This document shows positions 18,016 to 56,975 of a stretch of DNA of 64,000 nt, in pieces. This stretch comes from Gammaproteobacteria bacterium. Lineage in GTDB: Bacteria > Pseudomonadota > Gammaproteobacteria > Pseudomonadales > Pseudohongiellaceae. The notes below the pieces were generated by a model that saw nothing but the letters and a program-made list of their open reading frames with translations, had not been told where the DNA came from and did no database searches. The position numbers and the translations under genes were made by a program. Every line of letters starts with the position of its first letter. Within the stretch, counting starts at the first letter, position 1. The stretch lies in the NCBI GenBank assembly GCA_009844085.1, contig VYCF01000024.1:124001-188000 (forward strand), read 5' to 3'.

Positions 18016-18153
18016 TGCACTGCGTGAGTCGCCGTCGGGCTGTGGGAGATTCAGCGGGCGTCCCCGACATGGATGTCGGGGCCGAAGCCTACAGGGATGT
18101 ATTTACGGCGTCCGCTGAATCTCCCACAGCCCGACGGCGACGGATCGAAGCTA
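18016..18153 (-). repeat. palindromic intergenic element, copy 1
   Basis: A 30-bp perfect inverted repeat (18028-18057 with 18112-18141) encloses a 54-base middle holding two smaller hairpins: CCCCGACAT-GG-ATGTCGGGG at 18062-18081 and TACAGGGATGTA at 18090-18101. The outer edge sequences (TGCACTGCGTGAGTC and its far-side partner GGATCGAAGC) recur in three other copies. It is in reverse orientation to those copies. It sits in the 302-base divergent gap between the MBL hydrolase and serA genes, which holds no other obvious feature apart from an AT-rich stretch near 17985-18014. Confidence 0.9.
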
Positions 18154-18254
18154 CAGAACCCAACCACGCTGGCGTTTCGGAACGATCCGCGACATAATCG
18201 CGGCCCGCGCTCCGCCCCATTTTTCGGCAATATTTCAAACGGCAGGGAAACCAG

Positions 18255-19436
18255 ATGTACAGGATCCAGACCTACAACTCGATCGCCGACAAGGGCCTGG
18301 AGATTTTCCCCGACAATGCCTACGAAGTCGGCAGTTCGGTCCCGGATCCCGACGCGATCCTGTTGCGCAGCCACAAGCTCGATCCGAAAGCAGTCAACGA
18401 CGGGCTGCGCGCCGTGGCCCGCGCCGGCGCCGGCACCAACAATGTCCCCGTGTCCGCCTGCACCGAAGCCGGAGTCGTAGTCTTCAACACCCCCGGGGCC
18501 AATGCCAATGCCGTCAAGGAACTCGTGCTCTGCGGACTGCTGCTCGCATCCCGCGGTATCCTGCAAGGCATCCGCTTTGCCGAGGAAAACAGCGATCTCC
18601 GCGATCACGCCGAATACTCCAGCCTGATCGAAAAAAACAAGAAACAGTTCAAGGGCGCCGAAATAGCCGGCAAGACCCTAGGCGTGATCGGACTGGGCGC
18701 CATCGGTTCTCGGGTTGCCGAGATGGGAATCAGATTGAACATGAAAGTGCTGGGTTATGACCCCGCGCTTTCGGTCGACGCCGCCTGGCGGCTGCCGAGC
18801 CAGGTGGCGCGAATGGAAAGCCTGCAGGCCCTGGCCGCCAGTTCGGACTTCGTTTCCCTGCATCTGCCGGTGCTCGACACCACCCGGGGGCTCATGAACG
18901 GAGAATTGTTCTCGGCAATGAAACCCGGCGCCAGCCTGCTCAATTTCGCCCGAGAGGAAATCGTCGATACCGACGCCTTGCGGCAGGCGCTCGATTCGGG
19001 CCGGCTGGCGAAATACGTCAGCGATTTTCCCCGCCCCGACCTGCTCGGCAGAAAAGACGTGATCTTCATGCCCCACATCGGCGCCAGCACCAGGGAGGCG
19101 GAAGAGAATTGCGCGGTGATGGCTGTGAACCAGTTACGCGATTTCCTGGAAAACGGCAACATCCGGAACTCGGTGAATTTTCCCGACCTGTACCTCGACC
19201 CGGTGCCGAATGCGTCCCCCGGCACGAGGCTGGCGGTCGCCAATCTGAACGTTCCGCGGATGCTCGGACAGATCACGTCGATCCTCGCCGACCAGAACAT
19301 AAACGTGATCGACATGCTCAACAAGAGCCGGGGCGATGTCGCCTACAATCTGATCGACATGGAACACCCGGCTCCGGATTCGGCGCTGGACGCCATGCGC
19401 AACATCGAACACGTAATCAAGGTTACCGCCATTTAG
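18255..19436 (+). CDS. serA: D-3-phosphoglycerate dehydrogenase
   Basis: SerA oxidises 3-phosphoglycerate to start serine synthesis. The 393 residues have a substrate domain (ARAGAGTNNVPV), the NAD motif GLGAIGSRVAEMG, the catalytic Arg and Glu in NFAREEIVD and His in FMPHIGAST, and a C-terminal ACT domain from about residue 320 (LGQITSILADQNINV), which suggests allosteric control by serine. AGGGAAA precedes the ATG. A CATAAT hexamer at 18193-18198 may be its -10 box. serC follows with 26 bases between, so the pathway genes are together. Confidence 0.95.
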   Translation: MYRIQTYNSIADKGLEIFPDNAYEVGSSVPDPDAILLRSHKLDPKAVNDGLRAVARAGAGTNNVPVSACTEAGVVVFNTPGANANAVKELVLCGLLLASRGILQGIRFAEENSDLRDHAEYSSLIEKNKKQFKGAEIAGKTLGVIGLGAIGSRVAEMGIRLNMKVLGYDPALSVDAAWRLPSQVARMESLQALAASSDFVSLHLPVLDTTRGLMNGELFSAMKPGASLLNFAREEIVDTDALRQALDSGRLAKYVSDFPRPDLLGRKDVIFMPHIGASTREAEENCAVMAVNQLRDFLENGNIRNSVNFPDLYLDPVPNASPGTRLAVANLNVPRMLGQITSILADQNINVIDMLNKSRGDVAYNLIDMEHPAPDSALDAMRNIEHVIKVTAI

Positions 19437-19462
19437 GCATGCTGTTTATGAACCCGGGCGCA

Positions 19463-20554
19463 ATGACAAATCGCGTTTACAATTTCGGCGCCGGACCGGC
19501 GATGTTGCCAGAAGCCGTCATGCGGCGGGCGCAGGAGGAGTTTCTCGATTACTGCGGCATCGGCGCCTCGGTTATCGAAATCAGCCATCGTTCGCGTGAT
19601 TTCATGGATATCGTCGAGGCATGCGACGCGCTTCTCGGCGCTCTGGCCGGAATTCCGGACAATTACCGCATTCTGTACGTGCATGGCGGCGCACAGATGC
19701 AGTTTTCGGCCGTTCCGATGAATCTGATCGCCCGCAGGCCCCAGCGAAAAGCCGCCTACGTGGTTTCGGGAAACTTCGCCAAATTGGCCGCGAAAGAAGC
19801 AGCGCGTTACGGCGAGATCGATACTTCCTGCAGTAGCGCGGAAAGCAATTTCGACCGCATTCCCGAGTTTGACGCGCAAGCGGTTGACCCGGATTCCTCC
19901 TACGTCCATATCACCAGCAACAATACGATCTACGGCACCCGCTGGAACGCGATTCCCGATACGGGTGAAATCCCCCTGGTCGCCGACATGACTTCGGAAT
20001 TGCTGTCGCGGAAACTGGACATCAACCGTTTCGGCTTGATTTTCGCTTCGCTGCAAAAGAACCTCGGGCCTTCGGGCCTTGCCGTAGTGATCGTCCGCGA
20101 AGACCTGCTCGACCACGCCATGCCGGAGACTCCCGGTCTGCTCAACTACCGGAGCTGCGCCGAAAAGCATTCGCTGGCCAATACCATCAACACGTTCGCG
20201 ATTTACATGATGAAACTCGTGCTCGAATGGCTGCGGGACCAAGGCGGCGTCGAGGCCATCGAGCGGCGCAATGCGGAAAAGGCGGCGATTCTCTACGAAA
20301 CGGTCGACGGCAGCGATTTCTATCTCGGAACCGCACACGCGCCCCATCGTTCGCATATGAACGTCACCTTCAACCTGGCCGAAGACGATCTGCTCGATGC
20401 CTTCCTGCGCGAGGCGGAATCCGCCGGACTATACGCATTGAAAGGACACCGCAATGTCGGCGGCGCCCGGGCATCGATCTACAACGCCATGCCGGCCGAA
20501 GGCTGCCGGGCGCTCGCCGATTTCATGCGGCATTTCGAGCGTCAGCGCGCCTGA
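19463..20554 (+). CDS. serC: phosphoserine aminotransferase
   Basis: SerC transaminates 3-phosphohydroxypyruvate to phosphoserine using PLP. Evidence is the family opening VYNFGAGPAMLP, the SHRSRDF motif, HGGAQMQF and the PLP lysine in SLQKNLGPSG. I start at the ATG at 19463 (363 residues) because it matches the normal family N-terminus; in-frame ATGs at 19439 and 19448 would add eight or five residues. No strong ribosome-binding sequence precedes any of them, so coupling with serA is likely. Confidence 0.95.
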   Translation: MTNRVYNFGAGPAMLPEAVMRRAQEEFLDYCGIGASVIEISHRSRDFMDIVEACDALLGALAGIPDNYRILYVHGGAQMQFSAVPMNLIARRPQRKAAYVVSGNFAKLAAKEAARYGEIDTSCSSAESNFDRIPEFDAQAVDPDSSYVHITSNNTIYGTRWNAIPDTGEIPLVADMTSELLSRKLDINRFGLIFASLQKNLGPSGLAVVIVREDLLDHAMPETPGLLNYRSCAEKHSLANTINTFAIYMMKLVLEWLRDQGGVEAIERRNAEKAAILYETVDGSDFYLGTAHAPHRSHMNVTFNLAEDDLLDAFLREAESAGLYALKGHRNVGGARASIYNAMPAEGCRALADFMRHFERQRA

Positions 20555-55955: not shown

Positions 55956-55959
55956 AATC

Positions 55960-56748
55960 ATGGCTTTTCTGGAAGGAAAAAGAATTCTCATTCTGGGTGT
56001 CGCCAGCAAGTTGTCCATCGCCACGGGCATCGCCCGCGCGATGCACCGGGAAGGCGCCGAACTGGCGTTTACCTATCAGAACGAGCGGCTGGGCGAACGC
56101 GTCAGGCAAATAGCCGAGTCCACCGGTTCGAATCTGCTGTTTCCCTGCGATGTAACCAGTGATACGGAAATTGCGCGTTTGTTTACGGATCTGGCGCAAT
56201 CCTGGGACGGTCTCGATGGACTGGTGCATTGCCTGGCCTTTGCTCCGGCGGGCGAACTCGACGGCGATTTCGTCGATGTCACTACCCGCGAAGGTTTTCT
56301 CACGGCTCACGAAATCAGTTCGTACAGTTTCGTTGCGCTCGGACGCGCCGCCAGGTCGCTGATGGAAGGCAGAAACGGCTCCCTGCTCACGTTGAGTTAT
56401 CTCGGCGCCATGCGCAGCTTGCCGAACTACAATGTCATGGGACTCGCCAAGGCCAGTCTGGAAGCGAACATGCGATACATGACCGCGAGCCTGGGGCCGG
56501 AGGGCACCAGGGTGAATGCGATTTCGGCGGGACCTGTGCGGACACTGGCGGCATCGGGGGTGAAAAGCTTTCGCAAGATGCTCGACTACAACGCTCGCAA
56601 TACGCCGTTGCGGCGCAATGTGACGATCGACGAAATCGGCAACGCGGCTGCCTTTCTGTGTTCCGACCTGGCTTCGGGAATCAGTGGGGAAGTGCTTTAC
56701 GTGGACGGCGGGTTCAACACAACCGCCATGAGTGCGTTGCCTGATTAA
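55960..56748 (+). CDS. fabI: enoyl-ACP reductase (NADH)
   Basis: FabI performs the last reduction in fatty-acid elongation and is the target of triclosan-type inhibitors. The Gly-rich nucleotide motif ILGVASKLSIATGIA, TLSYLGAMRSLPNYN with catalytic Tyr, and GLAKASLEANMRY with the Lys are present. The ATG at 55960 gives 262 residues, the same as in Escherichia; an in-frame ATG at 55942 adds six. It stops 17 bases before element copy 4. Confidence 0.95.
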   Translation: MAFLEGKRILILGVASKLSIATGIARAMHREGAELAFTYQNERLGERVRQIAESTGSNLLFPCDVTSDTEIARLFTDLAQSWDGLDGLVHCLAFAPAGELDGDFVDVTTREGFLTAHEISSYSFVALGRAARSLMEGRNGSLLTLSYLGAMRSLPNYNVMGLAKASLEANMRYMTASLGPEGTRVNAISAGPVRTLAASGVKSFRKMLDYNARNTPLRRNVTIDEIGNAAAFLCSDLASGISGEVLYVDGGFNTTAMSALPD

Positions 56749-56764
56749 GCGTTACGTAAGTGTG

Positions 56765-56975
56765 TGGCTTCGATCCGTCGCCGGCGGGTGGTGTAAAGTT
56801 CAGCGGACGCCGTAAGTACGTCCCAGCCGCCAAGCACAGCTTGGCGTCGTTCCGGCTGCGCATGAAGCTGCGCTTCATAAACGCTTGCCTCCACCCCTGT
56901 AGGCTTCGGCCCCGACATCCATGTCGGGGACGCCCGCTGAACTTTACGCCACCGGCCGGCGACTCACGCAGTGCA
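56765..56975 (+). repeat. palindromic intergenic element, copy 4, with insert
   Basis: Outer arms 56777-56806 and 56934-56963 pair over 30 bases with two mismatches. The hairpin CCCCGACAT-CC-ATGTCGGGG at 56911-56930 is the complement of that in copy 1. The arm segment here is GTAAAG on the left and its complement on the right. The element is longer (211 bases) because of an insert at 56825-56897. It fills the gap between convergent fabI and ppiD genes, about 20 bases from each stop codon. Confidence 0.9.
56825..56897 (+). repeat. 73-base insert in copy 4, with two hairpins
   Basis: Relative to copies 2 and 3 this segment interrupts the TAC...TCCC/TGTAGG hairpin. It contains two perfect stems: CGCCAAGC-ACA-GCTTGGCG at 56828-56846 and ATGAAGC-TGC-GCTTCAT at 56862-56878. 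A CCC is seen at both junctions, which may be a short duplication. It may be an independent small mobile or repeated unit. Confidence 0.65.

Follow-up and report, generated by a model that had tools for sequence, protein, structure and literature searches.

What does a repeat do that is scattered between the genes of a bacterium and varies the sequence of its long stem from copy to copy, yet keeps the two arms of that stem complementary? The question is raised by four intergenic elements (18016..18153, 30829..30965, 50216..50344, and 56765..56975; elements 1 to 4) in a 64,000-nucleotide stretch, hereafter the window, from a gammaproteobacterium of the Pseudohongiellaceae (assembly GCA_009844085.1, contig VYCF01000024.1, positions 124,001 to 188,000), which is part of a 3.43-Mb draft genome in 77 contigs. 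We find that these elements belong to a clade-specific, amplified repeat that is gained and lost between species and that displays, on one strand, paired predicted hairpins of the type bound by the RNA-binding regulator CsrA. Judging from the sequence, we place at about 0.6 the probability that this repeat acts as a decoy for CsrA or as a local CsrA handle. Below, F denotes the functional strand, i.e., the one with the GGA loops, which is opposite to that used in an earlier sequence-only reading of the window; G000 is the own genome, other G numbers are compared genomes, and L and C numbers are loci and contigs.

An amplified repeat of one clade

A blastn search recovered 27 copies from the own genome, and their alignment of about 136 positions combines a conserved core with variable mid-arms. 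A covariance model built from these 27 copies, which match it by construction, scores 90 bits or more at no fewer than 57 distinct sense-strand places in the own genome, scoring having been limited to 150 of the 4098 first-look candidates; three of the 57 have about 73 extra bases in one loop. The sequence-only reading had expected many copies per genome and had named a lack of further copies, or arm changes independent of each other, as fatal to the idea of a structured family; further copies were found, and most arm changes come in pairs. Of 84 genomes of the genus, 10 contain a 22-base core pattern at no more than one mismatch; the own genome has 58 matches and the others 93, 84, 59, 27, 14, 13, 7, 5, and 5; read backwards, the pattern has no match in any of the 84. 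When 390 genomes were drawn evenly from the order, with seven other same-genus genomes and no other carriers among them, the sole match was in the own genome. The named records with the pattern are metagenome-assembled genomes of Pseudomonadales or Gammaproteobacteria that are Pseudohongiella-like, one named carrier being an uncultured Pseudohongiella sp. with one 3.4-Mb chromosome (OX638341). Carriage by phages, plasmids, or viruses was rejected, blastn having given no match in phages and plasmids and the exact pattern none in viral contigs.

Variants of the repeat are seen in other carriers. The same core occurs with a different edge pair (..CTGGCATCTCGCC ... GGCCTACGGCAT..) at L128, L129, L166, L173, and L176, and still longer forms at L258 (G445) and L243 (G444) have, nested in the core, a module that brings GCC-AUGGAU-GGC and GCC-AGGGAC-GGC hairpins of its own.

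Pairing is kept on one strand in particular

The predicted fold of each copy is a three-way junction made of an outer stem of about 33 bp and two small hairpins. On F, 96.0% of the pair cells of the 27 aligned copies hold standard pairs (99.1% in helix 1), as against 33 to 50% in a control in which the partners were slid by one to three columns. Both sides have changed at 18 of the 33 outer-stem pairs, so the covariation of the arms that the sequence-only reading had noticed in four copies holds in the larger set. It had also quoted two paired types of an inner hairpin; the commonest type among the 27 copies is a third one with a TC/TC mismatch (18 of 27).

A larger collection of 139 copies, of which 113 are full (the other 26, with incomplete arms or no core end located, were dropped), allowed the mismatches themselves to be used as evidence. 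Across 2684 arm pairs in 109 of these copies (four dropped), 88 mismatches comprise 56 G·U, 5 A·C, and 27 others on F, whereas on the strand of the earlier reading the same 88 would include 56 A·C and 5 G·T. Tallied at fixed positions in 104 copies, with one inherited position excluded along with nine copies that have more than six arm mismatches, the counts are 34 G·U, 6 A·C, and 28 others, and unique mismatch events stand at 31 G·U to 6 A·C (p 4e-5). Outside the outer arms, in core and edge columns at least 80% conserved and with the same nine copies left out, the corresponding transitions are balanced (23 versus 27), and the difference from the arms gives a Fisher p of 1.6e-4; both p values are optimistic because the copies share ancestry. 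The G·U excess on F, set against balanced transitions elsewhere, indicates that it is F on which pairing is maintained. The pattern fits a folded RNA or a single DNA strand and is not accounted for by simple mutation bias. The earlier suggestion of selection on the folded form is thereby supported and sharpened to one strand; the strand signal and the GGA loops described next are additions to it. The functional strand was assigned on the strength of two independent signs, the G·U mismatches and these loops.

Both loops match the published CsrA/RsmA site

Hairpin B reads UAC-A-n-GGA-n-GUA on F, with UAC, GGA, and GUA invariant in all 27 blast-found own copies; outside long forms such as element 4, the hairpin fits an ANGGAX hexaloop directly on a stem. 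In the 106 of 113 copies retained for the core-loop tally (seven with other core lengths dropped), A (105), C (106), A (105), GGA (106), G (106), and U (105) are kept, though this conservation is in part a product of the search, many of the copies having been collected with a pattern that spans this hairpin. The two n positions are among the most variable of the core, the first being G in 75, U in 26, A in 4, and C in 1, and the second U in 65, C in 36, A in 4, and G in 1. Hairpin A was not covered by the search patterns; it reads G(A/G)C, then A, n, G (98) or C (8), G (106), A (105), and finally U (77), A (19), or C (10). The SELEX consensus reported for the regulator is RUACARGGAUGU, with ACA and GGA invariant; affinity of CsrA/RsmE is described as best for a stem-borne ANGGAX hexaloop and lower without the N, and one dimer as bridging two sites 10 to 63 nt apart, best above 18 (PMC7652899, PMC4005645). 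Judged by sequence, both loops on F match this published high-affinity A-n-GGA-n site, and CsrA binding is the specific prediction that we draw. Of the 84 same-genus genomes, 71 have a csrA gene, among them all 10 carriers.

Transcribed on one strand, the repeat would fold so that its long outer stem presents the two A-n-GGA-n hairpins, and with them two candidate sites of CsrA/RsmA type that one CsrA dimer might bridge. By virtue of such bridging, a transcribed copy would act as a decoy for CsrA or give the regulator a local handle on the mRNA in which the copy lies. Since complementarity is all that would be asked of the arms, their middles could change pairwise, through compensation and probably through sequence taken over from other copies as well, with core and edges remaining fixed.

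The CsrA proteins of the genus themselves show a difference. Among the genes read in 38 genus genomes (own L192; L182-L191, L193-L209, and L326-L335), the residue after NAPK, which we take to be position 39 in E. coli numbering, is His in 10 of 10 carriers of this family and Glu or Asp in all 28 other genomes; the His variant is perhaps a mere clade marker. Open-frame lengths had hinted at a longer CsrA in carriers, but the genes read (n=18) encode 60 to 74 amino acids, and the idea was rejected. Other dispersed hairpins of the carriers also have A-n-GGA-n loops on varied stems (L256, L245, L258, L115, L075, L104, L126, and others), such as gaacgacTTGCC-ATGGAT-GGCAAgg, GAAAAATTCC-ATGGAT-GGAATTTTTC, and GCGGCAC-AAGGAT-GTGCCGC. 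In repeat-biased carrier DNA, 51 of 631 A-loops outside the family read A.GGA., and 45 CCA loops are mostly the same loops read backwards.

A second family with the same design

The design recurs in a second family. A search with the TwoAYGGAY RNA model, discussed below, also led to elements in G437 and G427, both of which are without the first family. The core in G437 contains two hairpins reading CAGGGA(U/C)G, and no exact stretch that it has in common with the first core exceeds CAGGGATG. Searched with a 39-base pattern allowing up to three mismatches, the 84 genomes yield 22 copies, of which G492 has 14, G437 has 6, and G485 has 2; none of these three carries the first family. The arms of the 22 copies are of several types, and their mismatches on the GGA strand are 42 G·U, 2 A·C, and 22 others, with unique events at 24 G·U to 2 A·C. 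Thus, a family with an unrelated core sequence independently repeats both the design and the strand signal, which we regard as the strongest support for the CsrA reading.

Relation to known RNAs and repeats

TwoAYGGAY RNA (Rfam RF01731; Weinberg et al. 2010, PMC2864571) has been proposed, from motif matches, to bind CsrA (PMC4333381). Like the repeat, it has an outer stem and two hairpins with A-n-GGA-n loops, on the same strand as F. No Rfam family matches the four elements at gathering score, which for TwoAYGGAY is 43 bits, and in a permissive search element 1 scores 38.7 bits on F (+). At an E value of 0.01, TwoAYGGAY matches occur in 6 of 20 genomes and exceed the cut-off in two (own G000:C65, 43.8 bits; G419, 45.0 bits), with none in 14 control genomes. 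Unlike TwoAYGGAY, however, most repeat copies are below the cut-off or without a match, and the second loop base is usually G rather than a pyrimidine. The A-pyrimidine-GGA-pyrimidine loop implied by the name is accordingly not the rule in the 106 cores, as a pyrimidine stands at the first n of hairpin B in 27 and at the second in 101, and hairpin A has no first n in 54. On the side of the repeat there are, further, up to 93 dispersed copies per genome, copy-specific arms, and conserved edges. On sequence, we consider it a relative of TwoAYGGAY in design, its membership being unproven.

The small RNA genes of the Csr/Rsm systems have their own promoter and terminator. The repeat has in common with CsrB/CsrC and RsmX/Y/Z the GGA motifs in hairpin loops, which in those RNAs can bind and sequester CsrA/RsmA (PMC7652899), but it differs from them in having two sites per unit, many dispersed units, and no promoter or terminator that we could find. 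The literature searches, which covered few subscription journals, showed no paper on dispersed CsrA-site repeats among the matches listed. An analogue is provided by the intergenic TAACTGA repeats of Beggiatoaceae, for which the author considered CsrA unlikely given the lack of GGA (PMC4679880).

Among DNA repeats, three kinds invite comparison. REP/REPIN elements are dispersed intergenic palindromes moved by RAYT (Y1) transposases, ERIC repeats are long imperfect palindromes of about 130 bp that are likewise dispersed, and classical miniature inverted-repeat transposable elements (MITEs) have terminal inverted repeats and a target-site duplication. The present repeat is dispersed, intergenic, and palindromic like REP/REPIN, with the same presence and absence between genomes, but is a longer three-way element whose carriers, as far as tested, have no Y1 transposase. 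By description, it resembles ERIC in size, palindrome, and dispersal; toward Yersinia, Rfam gives no more than a sub-threshold Ysr224 match (31.9 versus 70 bits), on the strand opposite F. Likenesses of the edge to integron attC sites and to the tRNA B-box were weighed informally and dropped.

Placement, gain and loss of copies

Copies are found in every orientation to genes. We classed 99 of the 113 full copies, the remaining 14 being at a contig edge (11), far from genes (2), or inside a predicted gene (1). Relative to the upstream and downstream genes, F is in the same direction as both in 31 copies, opposite to both in 23, in divergent gaps in 24, and in convergent gaps in 21. The median distance to facing 3' ends of genes is -3 to 19 bp, compared with 70 to 90 bp to facing 5' ends. 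Searches for terminators and promoters at elements 1 and 4 gave no site, sigma70-like scores 5' of 85 copies are as in shuffled sequence (other promoter types were not covered), and a T-run follows only 1 of 87 copies.

Between species, the repeat is gained and lost, as became apparent from the comparison of sites that the sequence-only reading had recommended. At the site of element 3, relative G445 has no element; at that of element 4, G445 has a short form and G451 nothing of the family. Conversely, window positions 45711..45715 are a site without an element at which relatives have one between two convergent genes, a long form in G495 and an internally deleted form in G445; the 5-base alignment overlap there is indistinguishable from divergence. 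The exact insertion point and a target duplication were sought at several sites and were not resolvable. The two edges of the repeat differ from each other, with a weak GGnTC..nAACC match outside them. Eight weak short matches in the own genome were examined, and all proved to be scars that have lost internal sequence but still show their edges. At one site the core has been flipped in place between unchanged edges and flanks, and at least three other copies have reversed edges. A search for Y1_Tnp (PF01797) found none in the own genome and none in any of the nine carriers tested, the own included (the tenth, G495, was outside the draw), although 69 of 99 genomes of the host family have one; hence, the RAYT-like gene that the sequence-only reading had suggested as a match for the edges is not supported, and RAYT/REP movement was rejected.

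Sites held in common by two species allow the change of the arms to be followed. In six same-site comparisons, two-sided and one-sided arm changes number 3/0, 0/4, 7/3, 3/3, 8/2, and 6/2, three of the six being of one site (element 4) and the last resting on flanks matched by eye; the pair L050/L093 was left out because the arms of L093 mismatch each other, probably in a chimeric contig. Paired change at 3 to 8 of 24 pairs beside flanks that are 86 to 90% identical suggests that arms are copied between copies, besides compensation. The copying of one arm onto the other, as earlier envisaged, is possible, given that same-site arms mostly change on both sides and that one core is flipped.

Two further loci are worth recording. 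The contig ends L272 (end of G000:C37) and L273 (start of G000:C30) break off within one and the same foreign sequence, which lies in the hairpin B loop of a copy, a picture that an insertion sequence targeting the loop would give. At L080:6086, a copy lies within a predicted gene in JANQSV, and its own-genome match, L270 (G000:C74:88715-88827), has quite different arms that are again self-complementary.

The four elements in the window

All four elements are at the positions given by the sequence-only reading, with edges, outer stem, conserved core, and two inner hairpins common to all, and each has a covariance-model match, complemented by a predicted fold in elements 1 to 3. The exceptions to uniformity are the 5' edge of element 3, truncated on F and lacking the GTGCA end (it reads TTACATTTTCTC), and the long form of element 4, whose hairpin B loop is expanded by about 73 bases. 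Element 1, a short form with F on the + strand, has hairpin A at 18062..18081 (loop AUGGAU, 18069-18074) and hairpin B at 18090..18101 (UAC-AGGGAU-GUA, loop 18093-18098), both seen in sequence and fold and the latter also by motif; its two GGA start 24 nt apart. The other three have F on the - strand. Element 2, also short, lies between the SRP RNA gene (30691-30787, -) and a + strand gene. Its hairpin B (30881..30892, loop AGGGAG at 30884-30889) is read from sequence, the single-sequence fold pairing this part differently, and its hairpin A (30901..30919) has the loop AGGAU, in which the N is missing, by sequence and fold. Adjoining it, at 30987-31016, is another dispersed palindrome (GTCATTCTGCGC..GAGCGAAGCG..GCAGAATCTC), which is also seen at several orthologous sites (L245, L248, L249, L256). 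Element 3, a short form that abuts the stop codon of the gene at 50342-51052, has hairpin B at 50268..50279 (UAC-AUGGAU-GUA) and hairpin A at 50292..50303 (GAC-AGGGAU-GUC); hairpin A of element 4 is at 56914..56925 (GAC-AUGGAU-GUC). These three hairpins are supported by sequence and fold.

Weighing the explanations

Several observations weigh against a role in CsrA binding. The orientation of the 99 classed copies to neighbouring genes is random, without bias, and no promoter or terminator of the kind expected of a Csr/Rsm small RNA gene was found. The GGA strand could then be transcribed only from neighbouring genes or as part of pervasive transcription, the weakest link of the decoy model. 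The strand bias is seen equally in copies in which F is antisense to both neighbours (8 G·U to 1 A·C), so that read-through transcription at the site is not required to explain it; the event counts behind it are, moreover, not fully independent, given the shared ancestry of the copies. The loops are also imperfect: hairpin A is without the n in 54 of 106 cores and has CGA in 8, hairpin B is broken in long forms such as element 4, and part of the conservation of hairpin B is, as noted, built in. TwoAYGGAY is not found in the element 4 region by the permissive search and, at an E value of 0.1, matches only 3 of 20 loci, 1 of them above the cut-off. Finally, a general enrichment of A.GGA. hairpins in carriers was dropped as an argument, for it is not seen in unbiased stretches (2 of 6 in the window, 1 of 13 in G444, and 1 of 24 in G451, as against 1 of 21, 0 of 14, and 0 of 1 in non-carriers).

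A rival to the CsrA reading is a non-autonomous mobile DNA repeat of the MITE, REP, or ERIC kind that some enzyme handles as a single-stranded DNA hairpin. The strand bias would then reflect tolerance of G·T pairs in the DNA hairpin, and the GGA loops would be enzyme contacts or coincidence. Presence and absence of copies between species, asymmetric conserved edges without an own promoter, random gene orientation with the bias persisting in antisense copies, the flipped core and the reversed edges, and scars that retain their edges all favor such an element. However, the usual mover of single-stranded DNA, Y1, is absent from the nine carriers tested, and mobility does not predict that both loops should match the CsrA site in two families with unrelated cores; we hold a purely mobile DNA element to be unlikely, if by no means negligible. 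A structured RNA recognised by a partner other than CsrA, be it a nuclease, another RNA-binding protein, or the machinery of a spread by reverse transcription, would account for the RNA-like strand bias in two families in which CsrA is only the predicted partner. The loops nevertheless fit the published CsrA/RsmE site down to which positions vary, and csrA is present in all carriers, which makes another partner rather improbable. Least credible is a transcription terminator or 3' stabiliser of flanking mRNAs, which we consider very improbable: the proximity of copies to gene 3' ends speaks for it, but 86 of 87 copies have no following T-run, no terminator-like site is found at elements 1 and 4, 24 of the 99 classed copies are in divergent gaps, and invariant loops would be unnecessary. 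With this we agree with the sequence-only reading, which had argued against a simple terminator from the placement of the four copies.

Implications

The CsrA reading may be taken a step further, to mobile CsrA sponges, a tentative extension to which we give rather less than even odds. Each spreading copy would add two predicted CsrA/RsmA sites, and the repeat load of a genome would set the level of free regulator. Such a role would accommodate the finding that two families with unrelated cores reached the same design in disjoint genomes, and the His in CsrA of the lineage carrying the first family would then be a possible co-adaptation. Irrespective of the partner, free arms combined with fixed loops offer a clean case in which compensatory evolution can be separated from arm copying. 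In broader terms, a spreading repeat may soak up or steer CsrA, a global RNA-binding regulator. If this is true, a class of bacterial dispersed repeats would gain a direct molecular partner, the biology of genome repeats would be joined with Csr/Rsm regulation, and the orphan TwoAYGGAY RNA would be given a function. It would also become testable whether such repeats are decoys that serve the cell or parasites that exploit CsrA.

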